Origin: an uncultured Bacteroidaceae bacterium
GTDB taxonomy: Bacteria; Bacteroidota; Bacteroidia; Bacteroidales; Bacteroidaceae
Assembly (NCBI GenBank): GCA_905234605.1
Contig: CAJOIE010000010.1
Location: 62,001 to 126,000 of the forward strand
Reading direction: 5' to 3'
DNA length: 64,000 nt
This document shows, one piece after another, positions 44,175-59,624 of the stretch (positions are counted from its first letter, which is position 1; every line of letters starts with the position of its first letter). The notes beneath the pieces are model-generated. The model saw only the letters and a list, made by a program, of their open reading frames with translations, made no database searches and had not been told where the DNA came from. The position numbers and the translations under genes are program-made.

Positions 44175-44669
44175 ATGAAAGAGCGCATACAGCTGATTAT
44201 GCAGGAGCAGGCAATGAAGCAACGCGACTTCGCGGCGGCTATCGGCATATCGGCTTCATCGCTCTCCAGTCTTCTTAATGGTCACACGTCGCCGACCACA
44301 TATACAGTTCAAGCCATCCACCGCCGTTTCCCAAAGATCCGTTTGGAGTGGCTCATGTTTGGTGAAGGACCGATGCTGGTTGATGACAGTGCCGAGGACG
44401 ATAGCAATGGACATGGCGATGACGCTGCAGCGGCAGTATCGTCGGTAAGTGCTCCTTCTCACGATGGCGTAGGCCTCAATGGCGGGACATCGGTTCCTGT
44501 CGTCGCTTCTGCCTCCACCTCAGCCCCATCGGAGTCGTTGCCGCAAGGGCAGCTGGTGATACGTGAGATTGTGAAATATGTTGACAAGCCGCAACGGCGC
44601 ATTACTGAGATACTCGTTCACTACGATGACGGCACCTTTGAGACATTCCCTGCGCGAAAGGATGTCTGA
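44175..44669 (+). CDS. XRE-type HTH regulator
   Basis: MKERIQLIMQEQAMKQRDFAAAIGISASSLSSLLNGHTSPTTYTVQAIHRRFPKIRLEWLMFGEGPM. Confidence 0.88.
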   Translation: MKERIQLIMQEQAMKQRDFAAAIGISASSLSSLLNGHTSPTTYTVQAIHRRFPKIRLEWLMFGEGPMLVDDSAEDDSNGHGDDAAAAVSSVSAPSHDGVGLNGGTSVPVVASASTSAPSESLPQGQLVIREIVKYVDKPQRRITEILVHYDDGTFETFPARKDV

Positions 44670-44987
44670 GGCTCTGCTGACGGACAGTGGTCGCTCCTCA
44701 CATAGGAGTCAGGCTTCAGGCTAATGCCTCTCGAAGTCCTCTGTATGTGTCGCTCACATTTCTGGCTATGTGAGTTCGCCGCCTCTGCTGAGGTTATGCA
44801 AGCTCCGTGCAGATGGAGTTCGCTGTCCATGTCAAGAGTCTTTGCCGCATCAGTAGACCATAGAGAATAACCTTACAAGCCAATAGCTGACCTATAGCCT
44901 TATATCTAACTACACATATCACTTTTACCATTCTTAGGCCGCCTTGTTCCTATTGTTCCTTCTACTCCTTAATAACTTATAGCGGCC

Positions 44988-45025
44988 AAAAGAGGCAACA
45001 ATCCGTGAGGATGATTGCCTCTTTT
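44988..45025 (+). terminator. Rho-independent terminator
   Basis: aaaagaggcaacaatccgtgaggatgattgcctctttt. Confidence 0.75.
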
Positions 45026-45089
45026 ATTGTTCTCTGACATTGGCTTAAAAAAACGACCCGCCACATGGCGGCCGTTACAGAATAACCAC

Positions 45090-45097
45090 TACCTTTG
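45090..45097 (+). promoter_or_regulatory. TAnnTTTG -7 box, candidate promoter of the cytoskeletal operon
   Basis: TACCTTTG; first clear box after the terminator. Confidence 0.45.
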
Positions 45098-45170
45098 AGG
45101 CGACTTCCCAATGCCCGCAAGGAAGGCGATGTCCCCTTGCATCATGGCCAGCATGCTGGCCTGACAAGTT

Positions 45171-45237
45171 AGGGCACTCCGCGCAATAGCAGAGCACCCC
45201 TCGCAATGACAGGGGCACCCCGCGCCGATGGCAGGGT
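45171..45237. repeat. Three imperfect ~21-bp tandem units (GGGCACYCCGCGCAATAGCAG)
   Basis: gggcactccgcgcaatagcag/agcacccctcgcaatgacag/gggcaccccgcgccgatggcag. Confidence 0.65.
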
Positions 45238-45637
45238 GGGGAGTCGCTACCGACATAGGAAGGCGTTACTTGACGCCTTGTGCTTGACGCTCGTGAATCT
45301 GGCAGTTCCCGAACATTTCGTCAGACAACAAGGCAACAATGACGCCCATGGGTATGTTATAGTCATGCCGCAGCCCGCGCCGTGCGGGCTGGTGGTGCTA
45401 TATACATACGGCGTGGGTATCGGCGTTGCTCGTTTCGACGAAAGAGGCAATGCCAGAGCCAACGAGCGTGAGACGGGCAGCAGGTCTGACTCTCACGCTT
45501 TTCTTTTCGGTAGCAGCCATCCATGGCAAGACGGCATCTGTGCCTGTCAGCCCAAGCCATGGCTGTCATCACATGTCACCTCGTCACAGGCCGCACGTGA
45601 GAGTCCGCCGGTCGCAAAGCATTTGTTTCTTGAAGCT

Positions 45638-46909
45638 ATGCGTGTACCATGTGGATTAGCAGCTATGCTCATGGGTGTGGCCATGCCGGTGTGCCTTTCG
45701 TGCGGCGGCAGGCCGTCGTTGTCTGATGCGGAAGCCGGGGATGGCGGCGGAGATGTGGGTGCAATTCCGGAGCAGAGTGCACCCGTTAGTGCACCCGTTG
45801 TGGATGTCTATTTTGAGAACTCGGGCAGCATGTATGGCTATGTCAATGGTGCCACGGAGCTGAAGGACATAGTCTACGACTACCTCACAAGCCTGGAGAC
45901 CAGTGGTGCCGTGTCCGCCATCAGACTGTCCTACATCAACTCTAAGGTGCTTCCTGCGGGAGGCGACATCGGTTCTTTCGTCAAGACGCTGACTCCTGCA
46001 TCGCTCAGGCGTAAGGGCGGCGACATGGGCACGTCGGACTTGGCCTCCATGCTTGGGCGCATCATTGCTGCATGCGGCGACACTGCTGTAGCGGTGTTCA
46101 TCTCCGACTGCATATTCTCGCCCGGCAAGGGTGTCGATGCTGCCGCCTATCTGGCTCGGCAGCAGATAAGCATCAGGCGCGCCTTTGCCGCCGGTGTGCG
46201 CACGCAGCCCCGTCTGTCTGCCGTTGGCTACCTGTGCTACTCCATGTTCGACGGCACGTACTACGATGCTGGCGACAGGCCTTCGGCTTTCAAGGGGCAG
46301 CGTCCGTTCTACATCTGGCTGTTCGGTGCGGAGTCGGCTTTGCGCCGTGTGGCCGGTGCCGTGCCGGCCGGTGGTTTCTTCGGCGATGGTGTCAGGGATA
46401 GTGTCGTCATCGCAGGCGGCGGCCGTGAGCTGTCTGCCAGGCAGTATGCCATCCATCCCGGTTCCGGCCACTTCGACCTGTCGCATGCTGATGCCCGCCA
46501 CACGCTTGAACATCTGGGCCGCGACCGTGGTGGCAAGTATGTCTTTGCCGTGGATGCCGACTTCTCGTCTGTCTTCGTGTCCGAGGCGTTCCTGGCTGAC
46601 ACTGCCAACTATCATACAGACAATGCCGCTTACCGTGTCGTCGGCGTGAAGGCATTGCAGGAGGCCTCTGCCATGTTCACGCATCGGGTTAGGCTTGAGG
46701 CCACGCATGTCGTGCCCGGACGCCTGACCGTCAGCCTGCGCTCATGCCTGCCGCCATGGGTCTGGCGTGTGAACGATGCGACAGGCGATGCTCTCACCGA
46801 CTCGACTGCGGCCATGACCTTCGGTATCGCCAGCATGGTGCGTGGCATTGCCGACGGCATCTGGCGTGACAGCGACAGGCAGGTGAGCTTCACGGTCAAT
46901 ATCAAGTAA
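45638..46909 (+). CDS. Lipoprotein with vWA-like domain (variant MIDAS)
   Basis: MRVPCGLAAMLMGVAMPVCLSCGG lipobox; VDVYFENSGSMYGYV (ExSxS), GTSDLASMLG, AVFISDCIFSP. Confidence 0.75.
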   Translation: MRVPCGLAAMLMGVAMPVCLSCGGRPSLSDAEAGDGGGDVGAIPEQSAPVSAPVVDVYFENSGSMYGYVNGATELKDIVYDYLTSLETSGAVSAIRLSYINSKVLPAGGDIGSFVKTLTPASLRRKGGDMGTSDLASMLGRIIAACGDTAVAVFISDCIFSPGKGVDAAAYLARQQISIRRAFAAGVRTQPRLSAVGYLCYSMFDGTYYDAGDRPSAFKGQRPFYIWLFGAESALRRVAGAVPAGGFFGDGVRDSVVIAGGGRELSARQYAIHPGSGHFDLSHADARHTLEHLGRDRGGKYVFAVDADFSSVFVSEAFLADTANYHTDNAAYRVVGVKALQEASAMFTHRVRLEATHVVPGRLTVSLRSCLPPWVWRVNDATGDALTDSTAAMTFGIASMVRGIADGIWRDSDRQVSFTVNIK

Positions 46910-46944
46910 CCATCGTCACACACATATATATAATCCGATAGTCT

Positions 46945-47418
46945 ATGAACTTAAGCGAGATTGCAGGCACCGTCTGCGACTTCATCAACCGCCTGGGGCT
47001 CTACTCCCAGCCTCTGAGCTTGTATCTGTGGGGCTACGACTGTTCCACGGGAGAGTACTCACTGCCCATTCTCTACAACCTGTATGGCTTCATCGCCTTA
47101 GTTGTGGCCTTGGTGCTTGCGGCAATCTACTACTATGCCTGGAAGCCTGTGCGCCGGCAGCGCATGTGGTGGTTCGTGCTGCTTGGGGCTAATGGTTTGG
47201 TGCAGTGGTGTGTAGCCTATTTCTGTCTTACGGCCCGCCTTGATGCCGGCCGCATTGGCGAGTGTCTGGTGTTCAATGACAGCGGCACGCAGGTCATCGA
47301 CCGTGCCGACATCGCCATGTTTGGAGTTGTCAACGCTGTAGTGGCCATGCTCCTGTTCTTCGTCCTGTCGTTGGTGTTTAAGTCGTTTAGCAGCACATGC
47401 AGGCACTATCCTTTCTGA
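46945..47418 (+). CDS. Small multi-TM membrane protein of the cytoskeletal operon
   Basis: LYLWGYDCSTGEYSLPILYNLYGFIALVVALVLAAIYYYAW; ~3-4 TM. Confidence 0.75.
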   Translation: MNLSEIAGTVCDFINRLGLYSQPLSLYLWGYDCSTGEYSLPILYNLYGFIALVVALVLAAIYYYAWKPVRRQRMWWFVLLGANGLVQWCVAYFCLTARLDAGRIGECLVFNDSGTQVIDRADIAMFGVVNAVVAMLLFFVLSLVFKSFSSTCRHYPF

Positions 47419-47456
47419 GATAACATCCTTCTACCTCACCATCTACAATATCCGAT

Positions 47457-48863
47457 ATGAGCAAACTCTATGTCTTCGGCATTGGCGGCACAGGAGCCCG
47501 AGTGCTGCGCTCGCTCACCCATCTGCTGGCCTGCGGCGTGGCGTGCCGCGACACAGTCGTGCCGGTGCTTATCGACCCCGATGTGAGCAATGGCGACCTG
47601 TCGCGAACCGTGACTCTGATGCAGCATTATGCCAGTGTGCGCGGCTCCCTCTCGTTTGGCAACGACACCTCAAGCCGCTTCTTTGCCACCGAGTTGATGG
47701 AAATAGGCCATTTCCGCCTGCCTGTTCAGGACACGCAGGATCTCGTGTTCAAGGACTTCATGGCTGTTGACCAGGGCATGTCGCGCCCCTCGCAGGCTCT
47801 GCTGCACATGCTCTTCTCGGAGCGCAACATGCAGGCCGACATGTCGGTGGGCTTCAAGGGCAATCCTAACATGGGCATCATAGTGCTCAACCAGTTTGCC
47901 ACCACGCCGGAGTTCATCGACTTGGCCAACATCTTCCAACAGGACGACCGCGTCTTCATCGTCAGCTCCATCTTCGGCGGCACGGGGGCCAGCGGTTTCC
48001 CCTTGCTGCTCAACACCTTGCGCGACAACCACACGCTGCCCAACTTTGGCCTGCTCAACGAGGCCGTGGTGGGAGCCGTCTCGGTGCTGCCCTATTTCAA
48101 GGTCAAGGCCACGGAGAGCAGCAGCATCGAGTCCGACGCGTTCATCGCCAAGACGCGCTCGGCACTGGCCTACTACGACAAGAACCTCCAGGGCAAGCTC
48201 CAGGCCATGTACTACATTGGCGACAATGCCACGGCCCACCGTTCCTACCCCAACATCGAGGGCGGGCGCGAGCAGCGCAACAATGCCCATCTCGTGGAGC
48301 TGCTGGCGGCACTGGCCGTGCTCGACTTTGCCAACCACGACTTCCAGCCTCACGGCAAGACCGTCTACAAGGAGTTCGGCATGGAGGTCGACAAAGAGCA
48401 GACCGTCATCTTCGGCAACTTCGCTGCCACCACGCGCAACATCCTGCGCCGTCCGCTCACTCAGGCCATGCTCATGGCCAACTATATGGACAACGTCGGT
48501 CTCGACCTGCGCCTGGCACAGCAGTGGAGCCGTGACAACGGCCTCGGTGCTACATTCTTCGCCGGCGACTTCTTCGGCCACCTACAGGCATGCCTCAAGG
48601 ACTATGTGGCCTGGCTGCATGAGATGGAGGACAACCAGCTCTCGTTTGCCCCATTTGAGCGCAACGCGCAGGATGCTTTCGCAATAGTGAGAGGCGTGAC
48701 TCCCGCGCGCAGCTTCTTAGGCAAGAAGAACTACCAGCTCTTCGACGCCACCCTCGACGACGTGAGCCGTAGCTTCAAGAAAAGGCCGAGCCCGGAGCGG
48801 GCCTTCATGGAGCTCTTCTCGGCCGCCACGGCCAAGCTCGTGGCACAGAAACTCAAGTACTGA
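47457..48863 (+). CDS. Tubulin/FtsZ-superfamily-like GTPase
   Basis: N-terminal FGIGGTGARVLRSLTHLL; tubulin-signature-like VSSIFGGTGASGFPLLLNTLRD. Confidence 0.82.
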   Translation: MSKLYVFGIGGTGARVLRSLTHLLACGVACRDTVVPVLIDPDVSNGDLSRTVTLMQHYASVRGSLSFGNDTSSRFFATELMEIGHFRLPVQDTQDLVFKDFMAVDQGMSRPSQALLHMLFSERNMQADMSVGFKGNPNMGIIVLNQFATTPEFIDLANIFQQDDRVFIVSSIFGGTGASGFPLLLNTLRDNHTLPNFGLLNEAVVGAVSVLPYFKVKATESSSIESDAFIAKTRSALAYYDKNLQGKLQAMYYIGDNATAHRSYPNIEGGREQRNNAHLVELLAALAVLDFANHDFQPHGKTVYKEFGMEVDKEQTVIFGNFAATTRNILRRPLTQAMLMANYMDNVGLDLRLAQQWSRDNGLGATFFAGDFFGHLQACLKDYVAWLHEMEDNQLSFAPFERNAQDAFAIVRGVTPARSFLGKKNYQLFDATLDDVSRSFKKRPSPERAFMELFSAATAKLVAQKLKY

Positions 48864-48884
48864 CCTTTACAGCAACACAGCATT

Positions 48885-51800
48885 ATGTCAAAAGTGTTTC
48901 GCATATACTCTTCCGGCAGCGACACGCTGCTTGACTGGCAAGGTAGCACCGAGAACCCCTACGGAGCCAAGGCCATAGGCGAGATTATAGACCCCGATGC
49001 CAAGGATTCCAAGCGTGAGATAACATCCATCCCGTCGCCCTTTGCACGCATCGACCTGGTGAAGAACGCATACGCCGAAGTCGTCAGGTCTGGCCGGCTG
49101 CGGGGCGACACCATCTTCCACAAGATTGTGTCCGACTCGCTCGACATCGCACAGATTTTCTTCCGCCTGCCCAAACTCAGGGGCAAGGTGGAAGTGATAG
49201 CCTGGCACCGCGAGCATGAGCTCAACCAGCTGCTTAGTGGCACGAGCGCGGCCCACCGGCGTGTGGGCGCGACGCTGAGCATGTTTCTCCGTCAGGATGC
49301 ATTGCCCGACAATGATAAGCCAGGCGTGTCGCGTGGCGATGATAAGGTGACGCCCTACAATTTCGAGCTCATGCAGGCCATCTACCTGCTGCGCTACTGT
49401 GGCAGCGCGCGGCGCACACAGATGGATATCATCGGGGCCACATCGCCTGCCACGCTCTTCTTCAGCACAGCCAACGACCTGAGCTACCTCTCGGCCGACC
49501 TCCAATTCGGCACCGACCGTGCCTTCGACAGTGAGTATGCCTCGCTCGGACAGCGCGAAGAGCAGTTCATACGCTTCTATTTCGCCTTCAGCAAGGCATA
49601 CCCCGATTTCTCCCGTCGCTTCAAGGAGGTGAACGAATATCTGAACCTCGTCTATCGCTACGACCTCACGCCGGAGCAGAAGGACATGGTCGATGCCCTC
49701 ACGCCAGACAGCGTGCGCGACTATCCCGAGCTCACGGCCAATCAAGACCGTGTGGAAATCAACGGCGTGGCCTATCGCAGCTGCGGCGTCAGCACAGGCG
49801 TGGTGAGCGACTTCGAGATACGCTCACAGGCTGCATGCGACGACGGCCGCCGCCCGCTGGTGTTGCCGGTGGAGTGCGGCACGCTCTACACCAGCCTCAC
49901 ATACGTCAGCGGCAAGTGGGAGCGCACCTACAAGGCACCGCAGACCGACGCGCGCCCTGTGGAGAAGCGCGACCTGCCCTTTGCCAACGAGGCATATCCC
50001 TATCTCACCATCAGCGACTTTCTTGAGGACAGCCTGGTCAGAGTGAAGCGCGAGGGGCGCATCGACGACAAGGCCTTCTACACCGCGGCCGCTGCCGACA
50101 GTGCCTACTGCTATCTCCTCCCGCTGCGGCCCTTGTTCTTCAGCTACTTCACACCAGAGCAGCTGCGGGCAGACCACATGCTCGACATCGAGGAGACAGT
50201 CACGGGACATGTGCGCGTGCGGCTGCGCATTCCCGTCAAGGGCGGCGTCAACATCGACTATGAGCGCAGCTACATCGACGGGCAGCCGTCCATCGAGGGC
50301 AATGGACGCCTGCTCACCTGCGACTTTGCCGTGGCACTGTTCACCAACATGGCCTTCACCAGCCAGCGGCAGGCTTACTATCGTGCCGGCATCGTGACCG
50401 AGTTCGAGCAGTGCGACGACTATTCGGCCACGTTCTGGCATGCCGGCAGGCAGGTGCCGGTGGCGGGCGAGGTGGTGCGCAACAAGGAGCACGATGCCTA
50501 CGTGAGCTGCCGCACCTACGTGCTTGAGCAGCAGTGCTTCGACCTTATGCGTATACGTTGCCGCGCCGACGGCCGCGATGCCGAGGGCGTGCTCGTGCCG
50601 CTGTTCAGGCATGGAGGCAGCAGCGGCGGCGACAGCAAGAGCATCGTCTTCGCCATCGACCTTGGCACCACCAACACGCATGTGGAATACCGGCTTGACG
50701 GAGGCACGTCGCAGCCCTTTGACATGGATGCCGACGACGCCATGCTGAAGCTCTGGGGCGACGTAGACCCCTTCAGGGCCAACACGTTGGCATACGACAT
50801 GCTCCCCGCTGTGATTGGCGGGCACACCCTATATCATTTCCCTATGCGCACAGCCCTCTGTGTGGGCTCCGCCACAAACTGGCACCGTGCCGTCTATGCC
50901 CTGGCCGATGCTAACCTGCCGTTCCCCTACGGGAAAAAGGTAGGTTATGCCTACGACCGTGTCCATACCAACCTCAAGTGGAGCTCCGACGGAGAGGCCG
51001 AACAGCGTGTGAGGGCATACATCGACTCGCTGTTCATGTTGCTGCGCATCAAGACCATGCAGATGGGTTGCCCGTTAGAGCAGACGCGCATAGTGTGGTT
51101 CTACCCCATAAGCATGATGCGCAACCGCTACGACACCTTCTCCCGAGCATGGGCGGAAGCCTACGCGAAGTACTTCGGCGGCGAGCCGGCCAATGTCCAG
51201 GCCATGACAGAGTCGGTGGCTCCCTACGAGCATTTCCGAGCTGACAACAGTGCCGTGAACAACATCGTGACCATCGACATCGGAGGCGGCACCACCGACA
51301 TCGTCGTGGCTGCCGGCGGACGGGTGACCGACATCACCTCGTTCCGCTTTGCTGCCGACGCCATCTTCGGCGACGCCTACACCACCGCCGGCACCACCCT
51401 CAACAGGCTCCTCTGCGCATACGAGAGCCCTTTCAGAAGCATACTCAGTGACAACGGCCTCAAGGACCTCACCGACATCATGGACGTGCTGGTCAAGGCC
51501 AAGTCGTCGGCCAACCTGGCATCGTTCTTCTTCTCACTGCGCGACAACCAGGACGTGCGCGACAAGCACGTTAGCAGGAATGTCGACTGGGGTGAGATGC
51601 TCCAGAGCGACGAGCGCTTCAAGCTCGTGTTCGTCATCTTCTACACGGCCATCGTCTACCATCTTGCCACACTCATGCTCTCACGCGGCCATCGCCTGCC
51701 GCGCCACATAGCCTTCTCGGGCAACGGTTCGAAGGTGATACGCGTGCTCTCGGCAAGCAACGCCACCCTGGAGGCCTTCACCAAACACATCTTCGAGGCT

Positions 51801-52289
51801 GTCTATGAGCGCCCCTACGATGCCGACGGCCTCACCATACTCCAGAACGCCGATTGCCCGAAGGAGGCTACGTGCAAGGGAGGTCTCGCGGCGAGCGAGG
51901 CCGAAGCCTTCGACAGCGTGCATGCTGCTCGCGCCGTGCTCCGTGGCGACGGCACGCACGAGTGGTTCACAACGGAGACATACGCGCAGGTCGACGATGC
52001 CATGAAGGAGCGGACGGCCGAGGAGGCACGCCGCTTCCTGGACTTCGTGATACGGCTGGGCTGCACTTTCTCACTGAAGAAGAACTTCGGCGTCAGCGAT
52101 GCCACTATCCGCATAGCGCAGAAGGAGTGCGCACGCGACCTGCTCACCTACGTGAACAAAGGGCTCGCCGAGAGGCTGCGTGAGGACGCACTGTCCGACA
52201 GTGTCGAAGAGACGCTCTTCTTCTACCCGCTGAGAGGCATGCTCTCCGCGCTCATCACTGCTATATACGACAACATCATCTGCAAGTAA
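48885..52289 (+). CDS. Large protein with C-terminal actin/Hsp70-fold ATPase domain
   Basis: phosphate-1 IVFAIDLGTTNTHVEY, phosphate-2 IVTIDIGGGTTDIVV, adenosine-like HIAFSGNGSKVIRV; ~590 aa N-terminal region of unknown function. Confidence 0.85.
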   Translation: MSKVFRIYSSGSDTLLDWQGSTENPYGAKAIGEIIDPDAKDSKREITSIPSPFARIDLVKNAYAEVVRSGRLRGDTIFHKIVSDSLDIAQIFFRLPKLRGKVEVIAWHREHELNQLLSGTSAAHRRVGATLSMFLRQDALPDNDKPGVSRGDDKVTPYNFELMQAIYLLRYCGSARRTQMDIIGATSPATLFFSTANDLSYLSADLQFGTDRAFDSEYASLGQREEQFIRFYFAFSKAYPDFSRRFKEVNEYLNLVYRYDLTPEQKDMVDALTPDSVRDYPELTANQDRVEINGVAYRSCGVSTGVVSDFEIRSQAACDDGRRPLVLPVECGTLYTSLTYVSGKWERTYKAPQTDARPVEKRDLPFANEAYPYLTISDFLEDSLVRVKREGRIDDKAFYTAAAADSAYCYLLPLRPLFFSYFTPEQLRADHMLDIEETVTGHVRVRLRIPVKGGVNIDYERSYIDGQPSIEGNGRLLTCDFAVALFTNMAFTSQRQAYYRAGIVTEFEQCDDYSATFWHAGRQVPVAGEVVRNKEHDAYVSCRTYVLEQQCFDLMRIRCRADGRDAEGVLVPLFRHGGSSGGDSKSIVFAIDLGTTNTHVEYRLDGGTSQPFDMDADDAMLKLWGDVDPFRANTLAYDMLPAVIGGHTLYHFPMRTALCVGSATNWHRAVYALADANLPFPYGKKVGYAYDRVHTNLKWSSDGEAEQRVRAYIDSLFMLLRIKTMQMGCPLEQTRIVWFYPISMMRNRYDTFSRAWAEAYAKYFGGEPANVQAMTESVAPYEHFRADNSAVNNIVTIDIGGGTTDIVVAAGGRVTDITSFRFAADAIFGDAYTTAGTTLNRLLCAYESPFRSILSDNGLKDLTDIMDVLVKAKSSANLASFFFSLRDNQDVRDKHVSRNVDWGEMLQSDERFKLVFVIFYTAIVYHLATLMLSRGHRLPRHIAFSGNGSKVIRVLSASNATLEAFTKHIFEAVYERPYDADGLTILQNADCPKEATCKGGLAASEAEAFDSVHAARAVLRGDGTHEWFTTETYAQVDDAMKERTAEEARRFLDFVIRLGCTFSLKKNFGVSDATIRIAQKECARDLLTYVNKGLAERLREDALSDSVEETLFFYPLRGMLSALITAIYDNIICK

Positions 52290-52300
52290 CATCAGTGCAC

Positions 52301-52942
52301 ATGACAGAGAACAACAACATCTATACACCCTGGCTGCTGCTCGCGGCATCGTGTATTGCAATCCTGATACTGGCCCTGTGGGTCTGCAAGCTGCTCAAGG
52401 AGAAGGATGAACTGCTCAAGGAGAGCAGGGAGCCAGACAGACAGCAGAGCCGACACGTCGGCAAGAAGCAGCCGGCCAATGGCATGCCAAAGTCATCAGA
52501 CAAGCGGAAGTCCTCCAAAAAGAGCCGTCAGGGTCAGCCAGCTTCAGAGACACCATCCCAAGAGCAAGCGGTGAGCCCCCAGCCGCACGCCGGTCAGGCA
52601 CTGCCGCAGCCAGCGGAGCCATTGCAGCCCGTGGAGCAGCCTACAGAGAGAGAGTATGCCTTTCTCCGCTGTGCCACAGACGGGCGTTTCGCTGTTCCCG
52701 CCGCCGAGGCCGACGGCAAGACCTTCTTCCGCGTATGGGACGAGGATGGGCAGAAACGTTTTGAGTTTCATGGCAATGAGCGCAAGGCTCTGGCAAACCC
52801 CAATGCCGTGTTCGACGGCGTGTGTGAGCTGCACGGACGGCGTGAGGGAGCAACGGCCATTGAGAACGTGACGCCAGGCGTGCTCACCAGCGACTACGCC
52901 GTGCAGACACCGGCTGTGCTGCGTCTGCACCCGATTATGTGA
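52301..52942 (+). CDS. Single-TM protein with K/Q/P-rich linker and small C-terminal domain
   Basis: WLLLAASCIAILILALWVCKLL; charged/proline linker; C-terminal FLRCATDGRFAVPAAEADGKTFFRVWDEDGQKRFEFHG. Confidence 0.75.
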   Translation: MTENNNIYTPWLLLAASCIAILILALWVCKLLKEKDELLKESREPDRQQSRHVGKKQPANGMPKSSDKRKSSKKSRQGQPASETPSQEQAVSPQPHAGQALPQPAEPLQPVEQPTEREYAFLRCATDGRFAVPAAEADGKTFFRVWDEDGQKRFEFHGNERKALANPNAVFDGVCELHGRREGATAIENVTPGVLTSDYAVQTPAVLRLHPIM

Positions 52943-52965
52943 AACAAAGCAATAAGCATATTATA

Positions 52966-54468
52966 ATGTTTGAGATTATTGAGATTATAGTTACTGCCGG
53001 ATGCATTGCCCTGGAGCTAATCAGCTTTCTCCGGACAATGCGCCTGATACACAGCTACGGGCATATCTTCCCCCAATCGACCGACAGCATCACGCTGACA
53101 GCGGAGCAGGGACGCATCAGCATAGAGGCCGTCAGTCCGTCGCCTACACTCAAGGCGATACTGCTCACGCTCAACCGTTATCTGCACAGCAATGCCAATC
53201 AGGTGAACGACTACCACCTCATGCGCGACGTGGTCGAGCGCAACCGCTCCACGCGAGAGGTTGAGATAGTCACCCTGCTGCCATTCCCGCAGTACATCGG
53301 TCTGGCTGGCACCATGATTGGCATCATCATCGGCGTGGCGACATTCGTCTTTGGCGGCGGCCTCGAGGCACTGGTCACCACGGCGGCTGGCCACAGCGAT
53401 GTCCGCGGCGGCATACGCATCCTGCTGGGAGGAGTGGCGATAGCGGTGGCAACGAGTGCCTGCGGGTTGGTGTTCACGGCGTTGAACAGCTGGTTATTCA
53501 AAAGAGCGCGCACGCAGACGGAGCAGAGGGAGAATGACTTCCTGAGCTGGATACAGGCCGAGCTCTTGCCCAACATCGCCACAGGCCTCAGCTCGGCACT
53601 CAGCCGCATGACCGACAACCTGAACCGCTTCAATGCCGCCTTCTCCGTCAATGCCGACAAGCTCGCCAGCGTGTTGGCCAATGTGCGCTCATCCTACCGC
53701 GACCAGGCCGAGGTACTCCGTCTGTTGCAGAGCACGGATGTCATCCGTGTGGTGACGGCCAACGCCACCATCTACGACAAGCTCAAGAACTGCACCGAGG
53801 AGATTGGCCTCCTCGCCGAGGGGCTGTCGAGCTCACGCCAGTATCTCGCCACGGTGCGCGAGGTGACGGCAAAGCTCGACGATGCCGACCGGCGGGCCCG
53901 CACATGGGAGCGCATGGGGCGTTTCTTTGAGCAGGAGGCCAAGCAGTTAGAGCGGCGCAAGGGTGCCATCACCGAGGCCGTGGGCGAGGTGGACAAGCGT
54001 CTCACGGAGGCTCTCACGGCACTGCGCGAGAGAGCCGACGCGCAGATAACAAGCACCGCTGAAGTCATGCAGGAACACAGGCGCAGCCTCGATGCCTCGC
54101 TCGCACAGCAGGAGCAGGTGTTCACCGAGAGGCTCGGGCAGATGTCGGAGACGATAGGCAAGCGCACACAGACCCTGGAGCGCGTCTTCGCCGAGCAGGA
54201 GAAGCTCTCCGCGGCGGCAGCCCAGGAGCTGCACCGCTACGCGCGACAGCTCGACAACCTGAGCGACATACGTCAGGGCATACGTGAGTTGCAGGCCGCG
54301 GTGGCACAGCAGAGCCAACGGCCGCTGACCGACGCGCCCATCACCGTGACCAGCCGAGTGGCATGGCCGCTGCAAGCTGCCGTATATGTCATTGCCCTCT
54401 TCTGCCTGATAGTTCTGGGCGGTGAGGCCGTGGCATTGTATCACTTCATAGTGTCGGTACTGTCATGA
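52966..54468 (+). CDS. MotA/TolQ/ExbB-like (ZorA-like) membrane protein with long coiled-coil
   Basis: LPFPQYIGLAGTMIGIIIGVATFVF...GGIRILLGGVAIAVATSACGLVFTALNSWLF; ~250 aa helical region. Confidence 0.85.
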   Translation: MFEIIEIIVTAGCIALELISFLRTMRLIHSYGHIFPQSTDSITLTAEQGRISIEAVSPSPTLKAILLTLNRYLHSNANQVNDYHLMRDVVERNRSTREVEIVTLLPFPQYIGLAGTMIGIIIGVATFVFGGGLEALVTTAAGHSDVRGGIRILLGGVAIAVATSACGLVFTALNSWLFKRARTQTEQRENDFLSWIQAELLPNIATGLSSALSRMTDNLNRFNAAFSVNADKLASVLANVRSSYRDQAEVLRLLQSTDVIRVVTANATIYDKLKNCTEEIGLLAEGLSSSRQYLATVREVTAKLDDADRRARTWERMGRFFEQEAKQLERRKGAITEAVGEVDKRLTEALTALRERADAQITSTAEVMQEHRRSLDASLAQQEQVFTERLGQMSETIGKRTQTLERVFAEQEKLSAAAAQELHRYARQLDNLSDIRQGIRELQAAVAQQSQRPLTDAPITVTSRVAWPLQAAVYVIALFCLIVLGGEAVALYHFIVSVLS

Positions 54469-55154
54469 GCCAGCAGGGCAACAGCGAGTCGCATTTCTGG
54501 CCGAGCTACTCCGACCTGATGACCAGCATGTTCTTCATCATGCTCGTCATGTTCGTGCTCACGATGGTGTCGCTGCGCTTCTCGTTGCTCGAGGCCGAGA
54601 AACTGCGCAGGGCCTCGGAGGAGCAGTTGGAGAAGATACGTGAGATACAAGAAGCCGTCCGACAGCTGCCGCAGCAGTATTTCGAGGAGGATACGGCCAA
54701 CAAGCGGTGGATGATACGCAGCGAGTATGCCCCGCATTTCAACATCATGAGCTCCGACATTACCCTGTGCAACGACACCGTGAGCCTGCTCCGTGTGGGG
54801 TCGTCGCTGATGGATGTGGTGGACCGTCTCAATGCCATGAAGGCCGACCCCAAATACAGCAACATGCACATCAGCTACCTCGTGGTCATTGAGGGGATGG
54901 CATCTAACGACAGCTACGTGGACAACGATGCCCTGAGCTACCGGCGTGCCCTGTCGCTCTACTACCTGTGGCGGCGCAACGGCATCTCGTTTGAGCAGTC
55001 GCAGTGCGAGGTGCAGGTGGCGGGCAGCGGCACGCGCGGCATAGGACGCTACAACGCCGGAGGCCGCCACCCGGAGCAGGAGGTGCTCAACCAGCGCATC
55101 ATCATACAGATAGTGCCTAAGATAGGCAACATACCTAAGATAGGCGACATATAG
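54465..55154 (+). CDS. MotB/OmpA-like (ZorB-like) protein
   Basis: WPSYSDLMTSMFFIMLVMFVLTMV single TM with Asp; C-terminal OmpA-like VVIEGMASND...LSYRRALSLYYLWRRNG; 4-nt overlap with upstream gene. Confidence 0.85.
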   Translation: MSQQGNSESHFWPSYSDLMTSMFFIMLVMFVLTMVSLRFSLLEAEKLRRASEEQLEKIREIQEAVRQLPQQYFEEDTANKRWMIRSEYAPHFNIMSSDITLCNDTVSLLRVGSSLMDVVDRLNAMKADPKYSNMHISYLVVIEGMASNDSYVDNDALSYRRALSLYYLWRRNGISFEQSQCEVQVAGSGTRGIGRYNAGGRHPEQEVLNQRIIIQIVPKIGNIPKIGDI

Positions 55155-55170
55155 GCCTCCCGCCGCCCAA

Positions 55171-55953
55171 TCACCACTCTGTCAGGCTGGCCGAGGCCTC
55201 CACGCGACGTTCCAGGGTGTCGGGCAGGGTGGGGAAGAAGTCCATGCCCGTGATGCGCTCCACCTCGTCGACGGTTCTGACATAGAGATCCTTGCGGATG
55301 TTGTCGCCAGTGTTGAGGCATACGAAGCCTATGGCCTTGGCCTTGCCTGTGAGGCAGAGCACGACCTTGAAGAATGCCTCAGGCACGGGTATGCGGTGCG
55401 CACCGATGCTGTCGTGCTCCTGCCGCAGAAAGACGGGGCCGCCCACGATGTAGATGTCGCCATAGCGGCGTGCCCAGCGGCGGCAGTCGAGCTCGATGGC
55501 GTTCCACAAGCCGTTGTTGAGGCGTGGGTGCTGCGGGCATATATTGGTGAGCATGAAGGTTTCTGCCATGGCCGTGGAGTCCCACTTGTTGTCGCCGGCA
55601 GGGCATATATGGCCGCGCGACCAGCCGCTGCCCGCATAGTCAGCATTGGAAGCACGAGGCGCGGGCACGCTGGTGTCCTCGCTGAAGCGGACCGAGCGTG
55701 ACACCTCGCCCGTGGTGTGCTCTCCCGTCAGGTGCCACGCCACCCAGTTGGGCTGCATGCGGGTCGGGTTGTAGCTCACGGTGTAGCTCTTGCGGATGAG
55801 CATCACCTCGTCCTGGCCCGCAAGCGGGGCGGGCTGCTCCAGGGGAGCGGTGCGCGGCGTGAGGTGGCGCGAGCGCGGGCTTGTGCAGCAGGTGCATACG
55901 AGGAGCATGGCAGAGAGGCAGAGTGCCCCGACAGTGGGCTTGAGGGTGACCAT
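55171..55953 (-). CDS. DNA/RNA non-specific endonuclease (NucA family), predicted lipoprotein
   Basis: LLVCTC lipobox; YAGSGWSRGHICPAGDNKWDSTAMAETFMLTNICPQHPRLNNGLW. Confidence 0.92.
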   Translation of the reverse strand: MVTLKPTVGALCLSAMLLVCTCCTSPRSRHLTPRTAPLEQPAPLAGQDEVMLIRKSYTVSYNPTRMQPNWVAWHLTGEHTTGEVSRSVRFSEDTSVPAPRASNADYAGSGWSRGHICPAGDNKWDSTAMAETFMLTNICPQHPRLNNGLWNAIELDCRRWARRYGDIYIVGGPVFLRQEHDSIGAHRIPVPEAFFKVVLCLTGKAKAIGFVCLNTGDNIRKDLYVRTVDEVERITGMDFFPTLPDTLERRVEASASLTEW

Positions 55954-56414
55954 AGTTGCGTGCAGTGGCTGTTTGTCGGGTCAAAGATAGCCATAAATGC
56001 CTCAGTAGCCCTGCCTCGTGCCGTCAAAAAGCAGGTGCAGCACCCTCTCTTCGCGATGCTCGCCAAAAGGGGCACTGTGGCATGCGTGCAGACTGCTGTC
56101 CCACAATGCTTTGCGCAAGCTGCCTGCCACCATGCAGGGTGGTTGGCACGCACACTGCCGCAGCTCATCTCTCTCCCTGCCGCCTCAAGGCCGGAGGCCT
56201 GGCATGTCAGCACTGCAGGGGCGGGCCGGCGGCCCGGTGATGTAGAATAATACACTCTTCCCTCATGCCCGCAGAGAATGACACATAGCCGACATGCGGA
56301 TTTTCATGCTTCCTGTCATGGGAAGCCTCATCGTTTTGCCTATGCTAATCCGGTTCCTTGTGTGTTGCAGATAGTTTTTTCGGGCGAGCAAGTGGCTCGG
56401 TAGCCAAAAACAGC

Positions 56415-56422
56415 TACCTTTG
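56415..56422 (+). promoter_or_regulatory. TAnnTTTG -7 box
   Basis: TACCTTTGC. Confidence 0.45.
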
Positions 56423-56609
56423 CAGCCAGATTAAATAGTCAGGGCAAGACCAATCAGAGAGCCCCCGTACTGAAGGGCGAGGACGCTTGATGTACTTCGA
56501 CATGATGGAGATTGCCCGATGCCCCCCCACGAGAAGATGCCCCGCAGAGAGTTGCACATAGCCAACAGAGTAATGCCCAAATCCCTTGGCCATTACGATA
56601 TTTTTGTTA

Positions 56610-56634
56610 CTCTCTCTCTCTCTCTCTCTCTCTC
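56610..56634. repeat. (CT)12 dinucleotide microsatellite
   Basis: Uninterrupted ctctct... run of 25 nt. Confidence 0.95.
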
Positions 56635-56829
56635 CTTCTAATCTTCGGTTCACCTTAATATAGCACGACGCGCGCACATGCGTCGTCATATACGGCTTTT
56701 CTTGTATTCACACAAGAGAAGTCGGCTTGTTTTTTGTCCCCGTCGGACTACGGCGGCGGGGACAGCGAGAAGGAATAACAAATACCTAAACACTCATTTA
56801 TAAATCATTCAAACAAAGTATTTAAGAAC

Positions 56830-56970
56830 ATGAAAAGAAAAGACTATCTGAAACCGACGATGGAAGTCGTCAAGTGTGAATCCACCGTAGAACTGCTCGC
56901 GGCAAGCAGCAAGACGAGAGTGAGTGCGACAATGAATAGCACGTGGGAGGAGGAGGACATAGACGAATGA
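56830..56970 (+). CDS. 46-aa small protein upstream of the fimbrillin-like gene
   Basis: MKRKDYLKPTMEVVKCESTVELLAASSKTRVSATMNSTWEEEDIDE*; below the supplied ORF-track cutoff. Confidence 0.65.
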   Translation: MKRKDYLKPTMEVVKCESTVELLAASSKTRVSATMNSTWEEEDIDE

Positions 56971-57016
56971 CCCCGCAGTCAACCTGCGTATTGACAACAA
57001 AATACAGGAGAAGACA

Positions 57017-58450
57017 ATGAAAACAAAGAATATCTTCAAGACGTTGGCCGCTGCCATGCTGATGCCAGTCATGCTGCTGACCACATCGTGCAGCAGCGAG
57101 GACGATTTACTCAACACCGAGAGCACCGCAAAGAAAGGCTACACCATTCCCGTCACCGTCAACGTGACCCGTCAGGGCGATGCCACCGCCACTCGCGCCA
57201 CGTACAACAGCGATAGCAAGAAACTGGAGTTCAGCGAGGGTGACAAGCTATTTGTGAGCGGGTGTTATAATGATGGTGAATACAATTATGCCGGTACGCT
57301 GGATTATGACGCTGTGTCTGGAACGTTCAGCGGCACCATTACTACCGCAACTAAGTGGACAGGCACAGCCGAAGAGCTTCTCTCAGCAGATGGTGGTGCT
57401 AATGCCACACTGTTGCCTGCGGGTTACGGAGTCTATGGGTATTTATCTATTGATGAAGAAGGTACTTCTGAAGCTTTTCTGGACGTAAATCCTGGCAAAG
57501 CTTTTGCTACCTCTAAGTCTGCAGCCGTGGAGCAGTTCAGCTGGGAGTATTGTGATTCATATTCTGATGGCTTTACCCTGATGCCTTCCAATTCCGTCCT
57601 CAACTTCACCATCAACGGCTTGGAGGCCAGCTCTGATGTCGATGTGGCATTCTCATTTCCCAATTATCCTGACCCTATTGTCATTTCAGGGAATGTAAAA
57701 ACCGACGGTTCGGGCACCGCTATATTTGCTATCGGCATCATATATGCCAATGACTTAAAAGACTGCACCCTGACGGTGGACGGCAATGACATCACTCTCG
57801 TCAGCGAAAGTAAGGTGGTCGAGGCCGGCATGATTTACAACATCACGAGGAGTGTGGCTCCGGCTAATCCCTTTGCCGGTGTCCGGGCCGAGGACATTGG
57901 CAAGGTGATTGGTGCCGATGGCAAAATCTACGTCGACGCTGCAGCTGCTGCCGCTGCCAACACCACCGCCGTGGCTAAGATTTGCTACGTGGGCAGCGAC
58001 AACGGCGAGGATGCACCATACAACCACGGTCTGGCTCTCGCCTTGAGCGATGCGAATGGCGGTGGCACATGCAAGTGGAAGAATGCGGCCAGCGCAGATG
58101 CAAGCCATATCAGTCAGAATAACCCCAGCAGTTTCGCCAAAGAGAGCGGCCTGCAGTACAACGAGACTCACAACAATGACACTTATCCTGCTTTCAAGGC
58201 TGCGATAGCCAATAATGGTACAGCAGTGCCCACAGGCTGCTCCGACTGGTTCCTGGCCAGTGGCTATCAGTTGACGAAGATGGCTGGTGCTGTAGGTGGC
58301 TATGGTAATTTGGGCTTGAATTCGTCGTCAAAGTACTGGTCCAGTACGGCGTACATGAAAGTCTTCGCGTGGTACTACGACTTCAGCAATGGCTGGAAAA
58401 ACAATCTTAAGCAAGATAAATACCTTGTCCGTGCCTGCATCGCATTCTGA
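57017..58450 (+). CDS. Fimbrillin-family (Mfa-like) lipoprotein with C-terminal DUF1566/C-lectin-like domain
   Basis: MLLTTSCSSEDD lipobox; YTIPVTVNVTRQGDATATRATY; C-terminal YWSSTAYMKVFAWYYDFSNGW...YLVRACIAF. Confidence 0.8.
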   Translation: MKTKNIFKTLAAAMLMPVMLLTTSCSSEDDLLNTESTAKKGYTIPVTVNVTRQGDATATRATYNSDSKKLEFSEGDKLFVSGCYNDGEYNYAGTLDYDAVSGTFSGTITTATKWTGTAEELLSADGGANATLLPAGYGVYGYLSIDEEGTSEAFLDVNPGKAFATSKSAAVEQFSWEYCDSYSDGFTLMPSNSVLNFTINGLEASSDVDVAFSFPNYPDPIVISGNVKTDGSGTAIFAIGIIYANDLKDCTLTVDGNDITLVSESKVVEAGMIYNITRSVAPANPFAGVRAEDIGKVIGADGKIYVDAAAAAAANTTAVAKICYVGSDNGEDAPYNHGLALALSDANGGGTCKWKNAASADASHISQNNPSSFAKESGLQYNETHNNDTYPAFKAAIANNGTAVPTGCSDWFLASGYQLTKMAGAVGGYGNLGLNSSSKYWSSTAYMKVFAWYYDFSNGWKNNLKQDKYLVRACIAF

Positions 58451-58710
58451 TATATAGCAATGTGTTCTCTCCCCGCACTGCGCGGACAGGTCCGTAACGC
58501 TGCGGTGTGGGCGAAATCCCCTCATGGCGGTCTTGCGGCCCGCCGCGAGTGTCAAGAGAATTGCTCACAGGGGACAGCCCCCTGTGAGGCCATGAACCCA
58601 AGGGAGGGCGGCTCAGCGGTGCACCGTGGCATCGGGGGTCGCTCTCCTTCTTCTCTCCCTGCGCGGCGGTGGGCGGTGCCGCTCGCCTGGCGGCCGGCCT
58701 GCCCGCGCTG

Positions 58711-58737
58711 CATGCGCCAGGCTCTGTCTGGCGCATG
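58711..58737. terminator. Strong hairpin upstream of pyrK
   Basis: catgcgccag-gctctgt-ctggcgcatg, perfect 10-bp stem. Confidence 0.5.
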
Positions 58738-58794
58738 TTTGCGGGCATTCTGGTTTTTATGCCGCCGCCGGCAGCTTTGTTTGCGTGGAGGTGC

Positions 58795-58802
58795 TTATCT
58801 TT
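58795..58802 (+). promoter_or_regulatory. TAnnTTTG -7 box of pyrK
   Basis: TATCTTTG immediately upstream of ATG 58809. Confidence 0.5.
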
Positions 58803-58808
58803 GCGGCA

Positions 58809-59624
58809 ATGAAGAAGTATCAACGTGAACTTGTCGTGGCGGCAGCCGAGGTGCTGCGTGCCGACTATACGCTGCTGCGGCTCAAGGCGCCTGCCGGCCC
58901 GTTGCCCGAGATGTGGCCGGGGCAGTTCGTCCAGGTGCGGGCAGATGCCTCGCCCTCTACATTGCTGCGCCGCCCCATCAGCATCAATTTCGTGGACACG
59001 GCGGCAGGCGAGCTGTGGCTCCTTGTGCATGCCGTGGGCTCCGGCACCCGTGCCTTGTGCGCTTTGCGCGAGGGTGAGCGGGTGGATGTCGTGTTGCCTC
59101 TCGGCACGGGCTTTCCGCTGTGCAGCGGCGGGGAGCGTGTGTTGCTCGTGGGTGGCGGCGTGGGCTCTGCGCCCTTGTTGTATCTGGGCTCACGGCTGGC
59201 TGCCCGTGGCTGCGACGTGACGTTCCTGCTTGGCGGGCGCCGGGCTGCCGATGTGTTGCAGGCCGACTGCTGCAAGCGTTATGGGCGCGTGTGCATTACC
59301 ACCGAGGACGGCAGTGCCGGCGAGCGCGGCGTCGTCACCGACCATTCGCTGTGGACTGAGGCCTCGTTTGCCACGGTCTACACCTGCGGGCCTCGCCCCA
59401 TGATGCGTGCCGTGGCCGCCCGTGCCGCGGCCATGGGGGCGCGCTGCTATGTCTCCCTGGAGAACACGATGGCCTGCGGTCTCGGTGCCTGTCTGTGCTG
59501 TGTGCAGCAGACCACGGAGGGGCATGTCTGTGTGTGCACCGACGGTCCGGTGTTCGAGGCCGACGCGGAGTTCTCACTGCGCCCCCTGCCGTCTGCCACC
59601 GACTATAGCGGCACTAATCTCTGA
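58809..59624 (+). CDS. pyrK: Dihydroorotate dehydrogenase B electron transfer subunit
   Basis: LRRPISINFVD, LLVGGGVGSAPLLYL, TCGPRPMMRAV, MACGLGACLCCVQQT. Confidence 0.93.
   Translation: MKKYQRELVVAAAEVLRADYTLLRLKAPAGPLPEMWPGQFVQVRADASPSTLLRRPISINFVDTAAGELWLLVHAVGSGTRALCALREGERVDVVLPLGTGFPLCSGGERVLLVGGGVGSAPLLYLGSRLAARGCDVTFLLGGRRAADVLQADCCKRYGRVCITTEDGSAGERGVVTDHSLWTEASFATVYTCGPRPMMRAVAARAAAMGARCYVSLENTMACGLGACLCCVQQTTEGHVCVCTDGPVFEADAEFSLRPLPSATDYSGTNL

Follow-up and report, generated by a model that had tools for sequence, protein, structure and literature searches.

A Zorya-like motor pair joined to tubulin- and actin-fold NTPases and exported hydrolases in Bacteroidota: a cassette that may be an envelope defence machine of a kind not yet described

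Zorya systems rely on a motor with a transmembrane (TM) Asp, a Thr/Ser ring, a coiled-coil tail and an OmpA-like head, and they have an accessory, defence-like distribution (PMC11890865, PMC8565338). The motor requires its Asp, its tail and its peptidoglycan-binding head, and mutations in the OmpA-motif region abolish both peptidoglycan binding and phage defence (PMC11890865). From another direction, Makarova and Koonin (2010) linked FtsZ-like 1 (FtsZl1) proteins, one from Bacteroides caccae being among those listed, with vWA, OmpA-family and exported components and suggested a role in membrane remodelling (PMC2875224). Kaur et al. (2020) described DO-GTPase/GAP1-N2 conflict systems in which tubulin, HSP70 and vWA components occur with effectors that vary and lie near the membrane; sister systems have effectors of trypsin-like and NucA endonuclease type (PMC7159879). 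In this article I describe a cassette that appears to bridge two of these kinds by joining a Zorya-like motor to a tubulin/HSP70/vWA conflict system, a gene set on which a search of open-licence PMC text, preprints excluded, found no paper.

The cassette lies in the window, by which I mean the whole 64,000-nucleotide stretch analysed, a portion of the 2.36-Mb draft genome (26 contigs) of an uncultured, gut-type Bacteroidaceae bacterium. Seven plus-strand genes, A to G, run head to tail from 45.6 to 55.15 kb, never more than 38 bp apart and overlapping by 4 nt at E/F and F/G. They encode in turn a vWA-like lipoprotein (A), a three-TM protein (B), a protein of FtsZ/tubulin fold (C), an ATPase of actin/Hsp70 fold (D) and a TM linker (E), and the operon ends with the motor pair, F (motor A) and G (motor B) (Table 1).

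Table 1. Features of the cassette and its flanks, in window coordinates.
Feature	Position	Strand	Basis or remark
XRE-type regulator gene	44175-44669		left flank of insertion
Insertion, ~14 kb	44670-58700 (boundaries approximate)	.	between XRE-type regulator gene and pyrK
Gene A, vWA-like lipoprotein, lipobox Cys, variant MIDAS ExSxS	45638-46909	+	alignment; start inferred from it
Gene B, 157-aa three-TM protein	46945-47418	+	homolog hydrophobicity, conserved position in core loci
Gene C, FtsZ/tubulin superfamily, 468 aa, FGGTGASG loop	47457-48863	+	Pfam, model, structure match
Gene D, 1134 aa, actin/Hsp70-type ATPase domain in C-terminal half	48885-52289	+	profile, model, Foldseek
Gene E, N-terminal TM, polar linker, conserved C-terminal ~100-aa domain	52295-52942	+	profile link to other E genes
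Gene F, ZorA/TolQ-type motor A, coiled-coil tail, C-terminal TM	52939-54468	+	PADLOC, TM-pair alignment, profile
Gene G, ZorB/MotB-type motor B	54465-55154	+	PADLOC, PDB profile, column counts, tree
Endonuclease_NS (NucA-type) lipoprotein, candidate effector	55171-55953	-	PF01223, 5.1e-54
477-aa signal-peptide lipoprotein	57017-58450	+	within insertion, between endonuclease and pyrK
pyrK	58626-59624		right flank of insertion

The cassette is an accessory, patchily distributed insertion. Five genomes of the same genus have pyrK, usually with pyrD after it, immediately next to the regulator gene, while here regulator and pyrK are separated by the operon, the Endonuclease_NS gene and one further lipoprotein gene; the GC content of this extra DNA is 0.585, that of the flanks 0.548 and 0.633. 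A search of the insertion ends found neither terminal nor inverted repeats, and no integrase was seen at the insertion; another copy of G was not found in the 100 nearest genomes, own-genus relatives included, nor were relatives of G found among viral contigs. The further lipoprotein, which begins MKTKNIFKTLAAAML..., does not recur beside the system and is probably cargo unrelated to it.

Of the five genes upstream of the motor, A, B and E were given no name by Pfam, PADLOC or NCBIfam. An alignment of gene A (A5, 11 homologs) has Cys166, E204, S206 and S208 invariant, in the numbering of the long ORF from 45206, and the aligned proteins carry ExSxS instead of the MIDAS DxSxS; since gene A matches nothing in Pfam, its vWA assignment rests on motif and context, and the A5 profile found no homolog in the PDB either. 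Gene C has PF00091 in 17/18 homologs (best 3e-9), PF13809 in 16/18 and an AlphaFold model (pLDDT 84.6, pTM 0.90) that matches FtsZ with Z 14.4 and an rmsd of 3.5 over 203 residues. For gene D the A4 profile finds MreB at 1.2e-5 and Foldseek, run on a model of pLDDT 79, finds MreB (1e-7), Hsp70/DnaK (1.5-2e-7) and ParM (4e-7); its Pfam matches to SrfB and FtsA fell below cut-off, reflect the shared phosphate loop only and were rejected. The motor's partners had been called cytoskeletal NTPases in an earlier note on this DNA, and these matches confirm them as NTPase folds: C and D have the folds of filament-forming families, polymerisation not being implied. Gene E is tied by profile to the E genes of other loci with the tubulin/actin core, its length being variable, and its matches to LYRIC and PD-T4-6 were dismissed as matches of the low-complexity linker.

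This gene set is like the FtsZl1 operons in combining an FtsZ/tubulin-fold protein with vWA-like, TM and OmpA-family proteins. It differs in that the typical FtsZl1 layout has an extended coiled coil after the FtsZ domain, whereas a long coiled coil sought in the model of C was absent, and in that no P-loop GTPase was found in the operon; MotA/TolQ, Hsp70/DnaK and exported effectors go unmentioned in the main text of PMC2875224. The tubulin versions of the DO-GTPase/GAP1-N2 systems belong to Firmicutes and Actinobacteria, with no stator pair described (MotA, ExbB and TolQ are unmentioned in PMC7159879), and the operon proteins gave no DO-GTPase or GAP1 match in Pfam or NCBIfam, libraries that may not contain such models.

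Gene F starts at a GTG at 52939, with an alternative ATG at 52966 that the earlier note had taken as the start. That note ascribed to the product TolQ/MotA-type TM motifs followed by a ZorA-like coiled coil, and this is borne out by a PADLOC match to ZorA2 (1.8e-6) and by a TM pair alignable with ZorA, TolQ and ExbB through GLxGTxxGI, with ring positions T125 and S173 kept. In the PDB the F profile finds ZorA (8vvn_C) at E 0.005; apolipoprotein and other coiled coils top its matches there and were disregarded. Hydrophobic segments lie at residues ~6, 113 and 157, and a fourth, overlooked earlier, near the C-terminus at ~473. A C-terminal TM of this kind is present in 38/60 core F proteins, as against 0/12 of those linked to DarT (see below) and 0/5 ZorA, so that in most core F proteins the tail probably goes back to the membrane.

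The second protein had been read as having one TM with an Asp and an OmpA-like domain, and this holds. PADLOC places G with ZorB1 (4.8e-12) and a profile built from eight G proteins matches ZorB in the PDB, 8vvn_B over its whole length (2e-12) and 8qyd_F at 6e-9, the first flagellar MotB coming in below the solved ZorB at 1.8e-3; Pfam offers only MotB_plug at 0.05 and OmpA at 0.015. Asp17, whose codon is 54513-54515, is invariant in 88/88 members of the G family. The head is another matter. In OmpA-like domains an Asp and an Arg are the pair that holds diaminopimelate. The Asp of the GHTD motif is kept in 6/6 ZorB and 32/32 MotB but in 0/88 of the G family, where it is Ser (78), Ala (7) or Gln (3), and the window's G has Ser147 where the ligand Asp is usual. 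Elsewhere in the motif the His is absent, the Thr survives in 5/88 and NRR has become NQR in 78/88; among the residues of GHTD...LSxxR...NRR, mapped onto G by motif spacing from those needed in Zorya (PMC11890865), only L157 and R161 are kept across all 88.

A B-subunit tree of 80 rows, in which ZorB is represented by six sequences only, mostly type I, gathers all G-type rows in one group (98/93) and MotB in another (99/97) that contains no G-family row, while TolR/ExbD split off (100/99) on a long branch and ZorB does not enclose the G family. Topology tests reject neither G with ZorB (p-AU 0.40) nor G with MotB (p-AU 0.28). A single clade of core G, on the other hand, was rejected (p-AU 9e-38), which implies that the motor module has been swapped between settings. 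In this tree, of the kind that the earlier note had proposed as a check on canonical placement, G lies outside both sampled groups, MotB and TolR/ExbD, supporting the view that the B subunit is not a canonical MotB or TolR; from TolR and ExbD it differs also by its OmpA-like head. The MotAB, TolQR and ExbBD stators are like the present pair in the A-subunit TM motif and the B-subunit TM Asp, and unlike it in standing apart from the G family in the tree and in their setting, there being no flagellum, Tol or Ton context here. Of the ZorA/ZorB-like reading itself, then, the ZorAB-type stator stands, qualified by a B clade of its own and an altered OmpA ligand motif.

Homologs of C were found in 22/393 genomes of the order, and the 20 neighbourhoods inspected had the motor pair in seven and D in most. 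A scan of named genomes with the G profile gave 80 loci, the best 80 of 278 and hence a biased sample, in which A, B, C, D, F and G were all present in 39/80, C or D plus the motor in 52/80, and F and G only in 24/80, several of these truncated by contig ends. Carriers include Bacteroides, Parabacteroides, Flavobacterium, Myroides, Hymenobacter and Thermonema and MAGs of Ignavibacteriales and Fibrimonadaceae. The gene set thus spans several families of Bacteroidota, and since dozens of genomes in the phylum combine the motor pair with these partners, a chance association is excluded. The tubulin/actin core also stands without a motor, in 14 loci. Loci with the core and no motor pair (L030, L032, L040, L042, L045-L048) have contents of their own, such as two E-type genes and a retropepsin lipoprotein in L030 and a PP2C-like phosphatase in L045.

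In many loci the gene 3' of G encodes an exported hydrolase, often a lipoprotein, usually on the same strand and frequently with a 4-nt overlap with G, and its fold varies among Pfam-confirmed families: Trypsin_2, retropepsin-like aspartyl protease, SNase and Endonuclease_NS, the last directly 3' of G in five loci besides the window's. Hydrolases make up 58/446 genes at most three genes from the operon versus 2/354 at least five away (odds ratio 26, p 1.5e-13), a test that is partly circular, the clusters of effectors having been drawn up from the very loci tested, which are themselves not independent. At least one effector accompanies 38/59 core-plus-motor loci, and 21/59 are without a recognised effector nearby, contig ends explaining some of these. 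The unrelated trypsin-like, retropepsin-like and Endonuclease_NS effectors have in common a basic linker after the lipidated Cys, with a mean charge of +2.1 to +2.65 in the three kinds versus -0.2 in the other lipoproteins of the loci; the SNase effectors (n=3) are without it. As an observation on the side, a ~98-aa hydrophobic protein (cluster 8) is the second gene after G, behind the hydrolase, in seven loci.

The window's endonuclease gene is 16 bp downstream of G and convergent to it, and Endonuclease_NS genes are frequent in Bacteroidales (44/61 genomes), the nearest copy, 56% identical, sitting outside any such system. Although inverted and of a common family, it is argued into the effector class by its lipobox and basic linker, in which it is like the system-linked effectors and unlike the stand-alone copies in relatives (up to 56% identical). 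The idea that it is resident chromosome was rejected, as it lies inside the insertion and its N-terminus differs from that of resident copies.

The same kind of motor occurs in other company. A four-gene module at twelve loci, one of them in Bacteroides xylanisolvens XB1A, consists of a ~450-aa protein with a C-terminal DarT (PF14487, 1.6e-23), a DUF6939 protein (7e-78, with a weak NADAR-DarT1 match), an F-type gene and a G-type gene, with no tubulin/actin core; the pairing of a motor with a DNA ADP-ribosyltransferase is apparently undescribed so far. At five loci in Bacteroidia an F gene (~440 aa) and a G gene (~270 aa) stand by themselves with ordinary chromosomal neighbours; these pairs form a subclade of their own (99/97) and are possibly housekeeping relatives. 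At two further loci, on partial contigs, the motor pair is followed by a TM protein (weak DUF4407), a STAND/AAA-like P-loop NTPase and a ~520-aa protein, an arrangement that looks like a further variant of the module.

What, then, might the cassette do? When 98 proteins flanking core loci were compared with PADLOC, matches included AbiEii (3e-115), type I restriction subunits, RtcR-CARF, PD-T4-6 and others, versus a best of 7e-20 for 90 control proteins, a comparison that rests on this one small control set; the trypsin-like effector, moreover, is similar to the protease of the defence RT-Protease XI (3e-21), and the motor family is shared with the DarT module. Such likenesses support a role in defence and are not proof of it. 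No PADLOC Zorya match was obtained for the other operon genes or the endonuclease, in line with the earlier statement that no ZorC, ZorD or ZorE is adjacent, and the further suggestion of a stator reused for another output holds in outline, with the motor wired to NTPases in place of Zorya effectors. That output, however, is probably still conflict or defence, because exported hydrolases of variable fold adjoin motor B and the cassette is a patchy insertion. The anatomy is well supported, and the function is what I infer from it: a biological-conflict system of the tubulin/HSP70/vWA kind that spans the envelope, is most likely directed against phages and draws its energy through a Zorya-like motor, a reading for and against which I find myself evenly divided. 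The more specific proposal, that an ion-driven rotary motor and tubulin/actin-type NTPases control interchangeable periplasmic lipoprotein proteases and nucleases, docking through an Asp-less OmpA-like domain, and so constitute a new class of envelope immunity, I put forward tentatively, as somewhat short of an even chance.

Every part of the cassette is at or near the envelope and the folds of C and D are those of filament-forming families, so one could picture a membrane-remodelling or envelope-maintenance machine instead, much as was proposed when FtsZl1, vWA, OmpA-family and exported components were linked (PMC2875224), with NTPases that shape or scan the inner membrane, a motor that gives force and hydrolases for housekeeping processing; yet a patchy cassette, which the 100 nearest genomes lack and for which five empty sites were mapped, with swapped effector folds and defence-type neighbours, makes this unlikely. 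That F and G are simply ZorA and ZorB, with C, D or the endonuclease replacing ZorC/D/E in the published mechanism, is more doubtful still. G's best HMM and PDB matches are ZorB, the A-subunit tail is long and the grouping of the G family with ZorB is tolerated by the topology tests, but the family forms a clade apart, most core F proteins have a C-terminal TM not seen in ZorA, the H, T and D of GHTD are replaced family-wide along with the change to NQR, in a motif whose residues are needed in Zorya (PMC11890865), and, beside tubulin, actin/Hsp70 and vWA partners, an exported hydrolase replaces the cytosolic effectors, ZorC/D/E/F/G. Because effectors and canonical peptidoglycan residues, two of the Zorya features compared, are not those of Zorya, I do not file the cassette as a member. 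Least probable, with only a slim chance, is an energiser of envelope transport or secretion in the manner of ExbBD, TolQR or GldLM, moving lipoproteins or other substrates across the envelope: GldLM is used for secretion in Bacteroidota, the effectors are exported lipoproteins and the F TM pair is by motif equally close to TolQ/ExbB and to ZorA, whereas the G head is OmpA-like and not that of ExbD/TolR, which are far outside in the tree, and neither TonB-dependent receptors nor secretion genes are recurrent neighbours of the operon.

Were the conflict-system reading correct, F and G would rest in the inner membrane as a closed F5G2 complex with G Asp17 facing the Thr125/Ser173 ring of F, the residues being there to be seen and the 5:2 stoichiometry and closed state being what I infer. 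The OmpA-like head of G, with its Asp lost in 88/88, may for that reason bind a periplasmic partner, be it vWA lipoprotein A or an effector lipoprotein, and not peptidoglycan as is usual. A, B, E or G might then sense a disturbance of the envelope, such as phage entry, upon which the channel would open and, by analogy with Zorya, ion flow would rotate the F ring and its coiled-coil tail; the cytoplasmic tail and E could couple this to the NTPases C and D, setting a threshold or localising the complex. Finally the exported hydrolase, here Endonuclease_NS, would be released or activated on site to degrade DNA or protein of the invader, or else the envelope of the cell itself, presumably conferring protection, a step suggested by enzymes that are exported, interchangeable and equipped with catalytic motifs.

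Since there are cultured carriers (Parabacteroides distasonis An897, Bacteroides sp. 224, Flavobacterium, Myroides, Hymenobacter), these ideas can soon be tested. Ion-driven motors of the 5:2 type have only a few known outputs, and a family in which such a motor is joined to NTPases and exported enzymes would be an example of how this module recombines. That all 88 sampled members have lost the peptidoglycan Asp bears on how general peptidoglycan sensing is among Zorya-like motors and, if the proposal is true, the cassette would exemplify immunity that operates beyond the cytoplasm.
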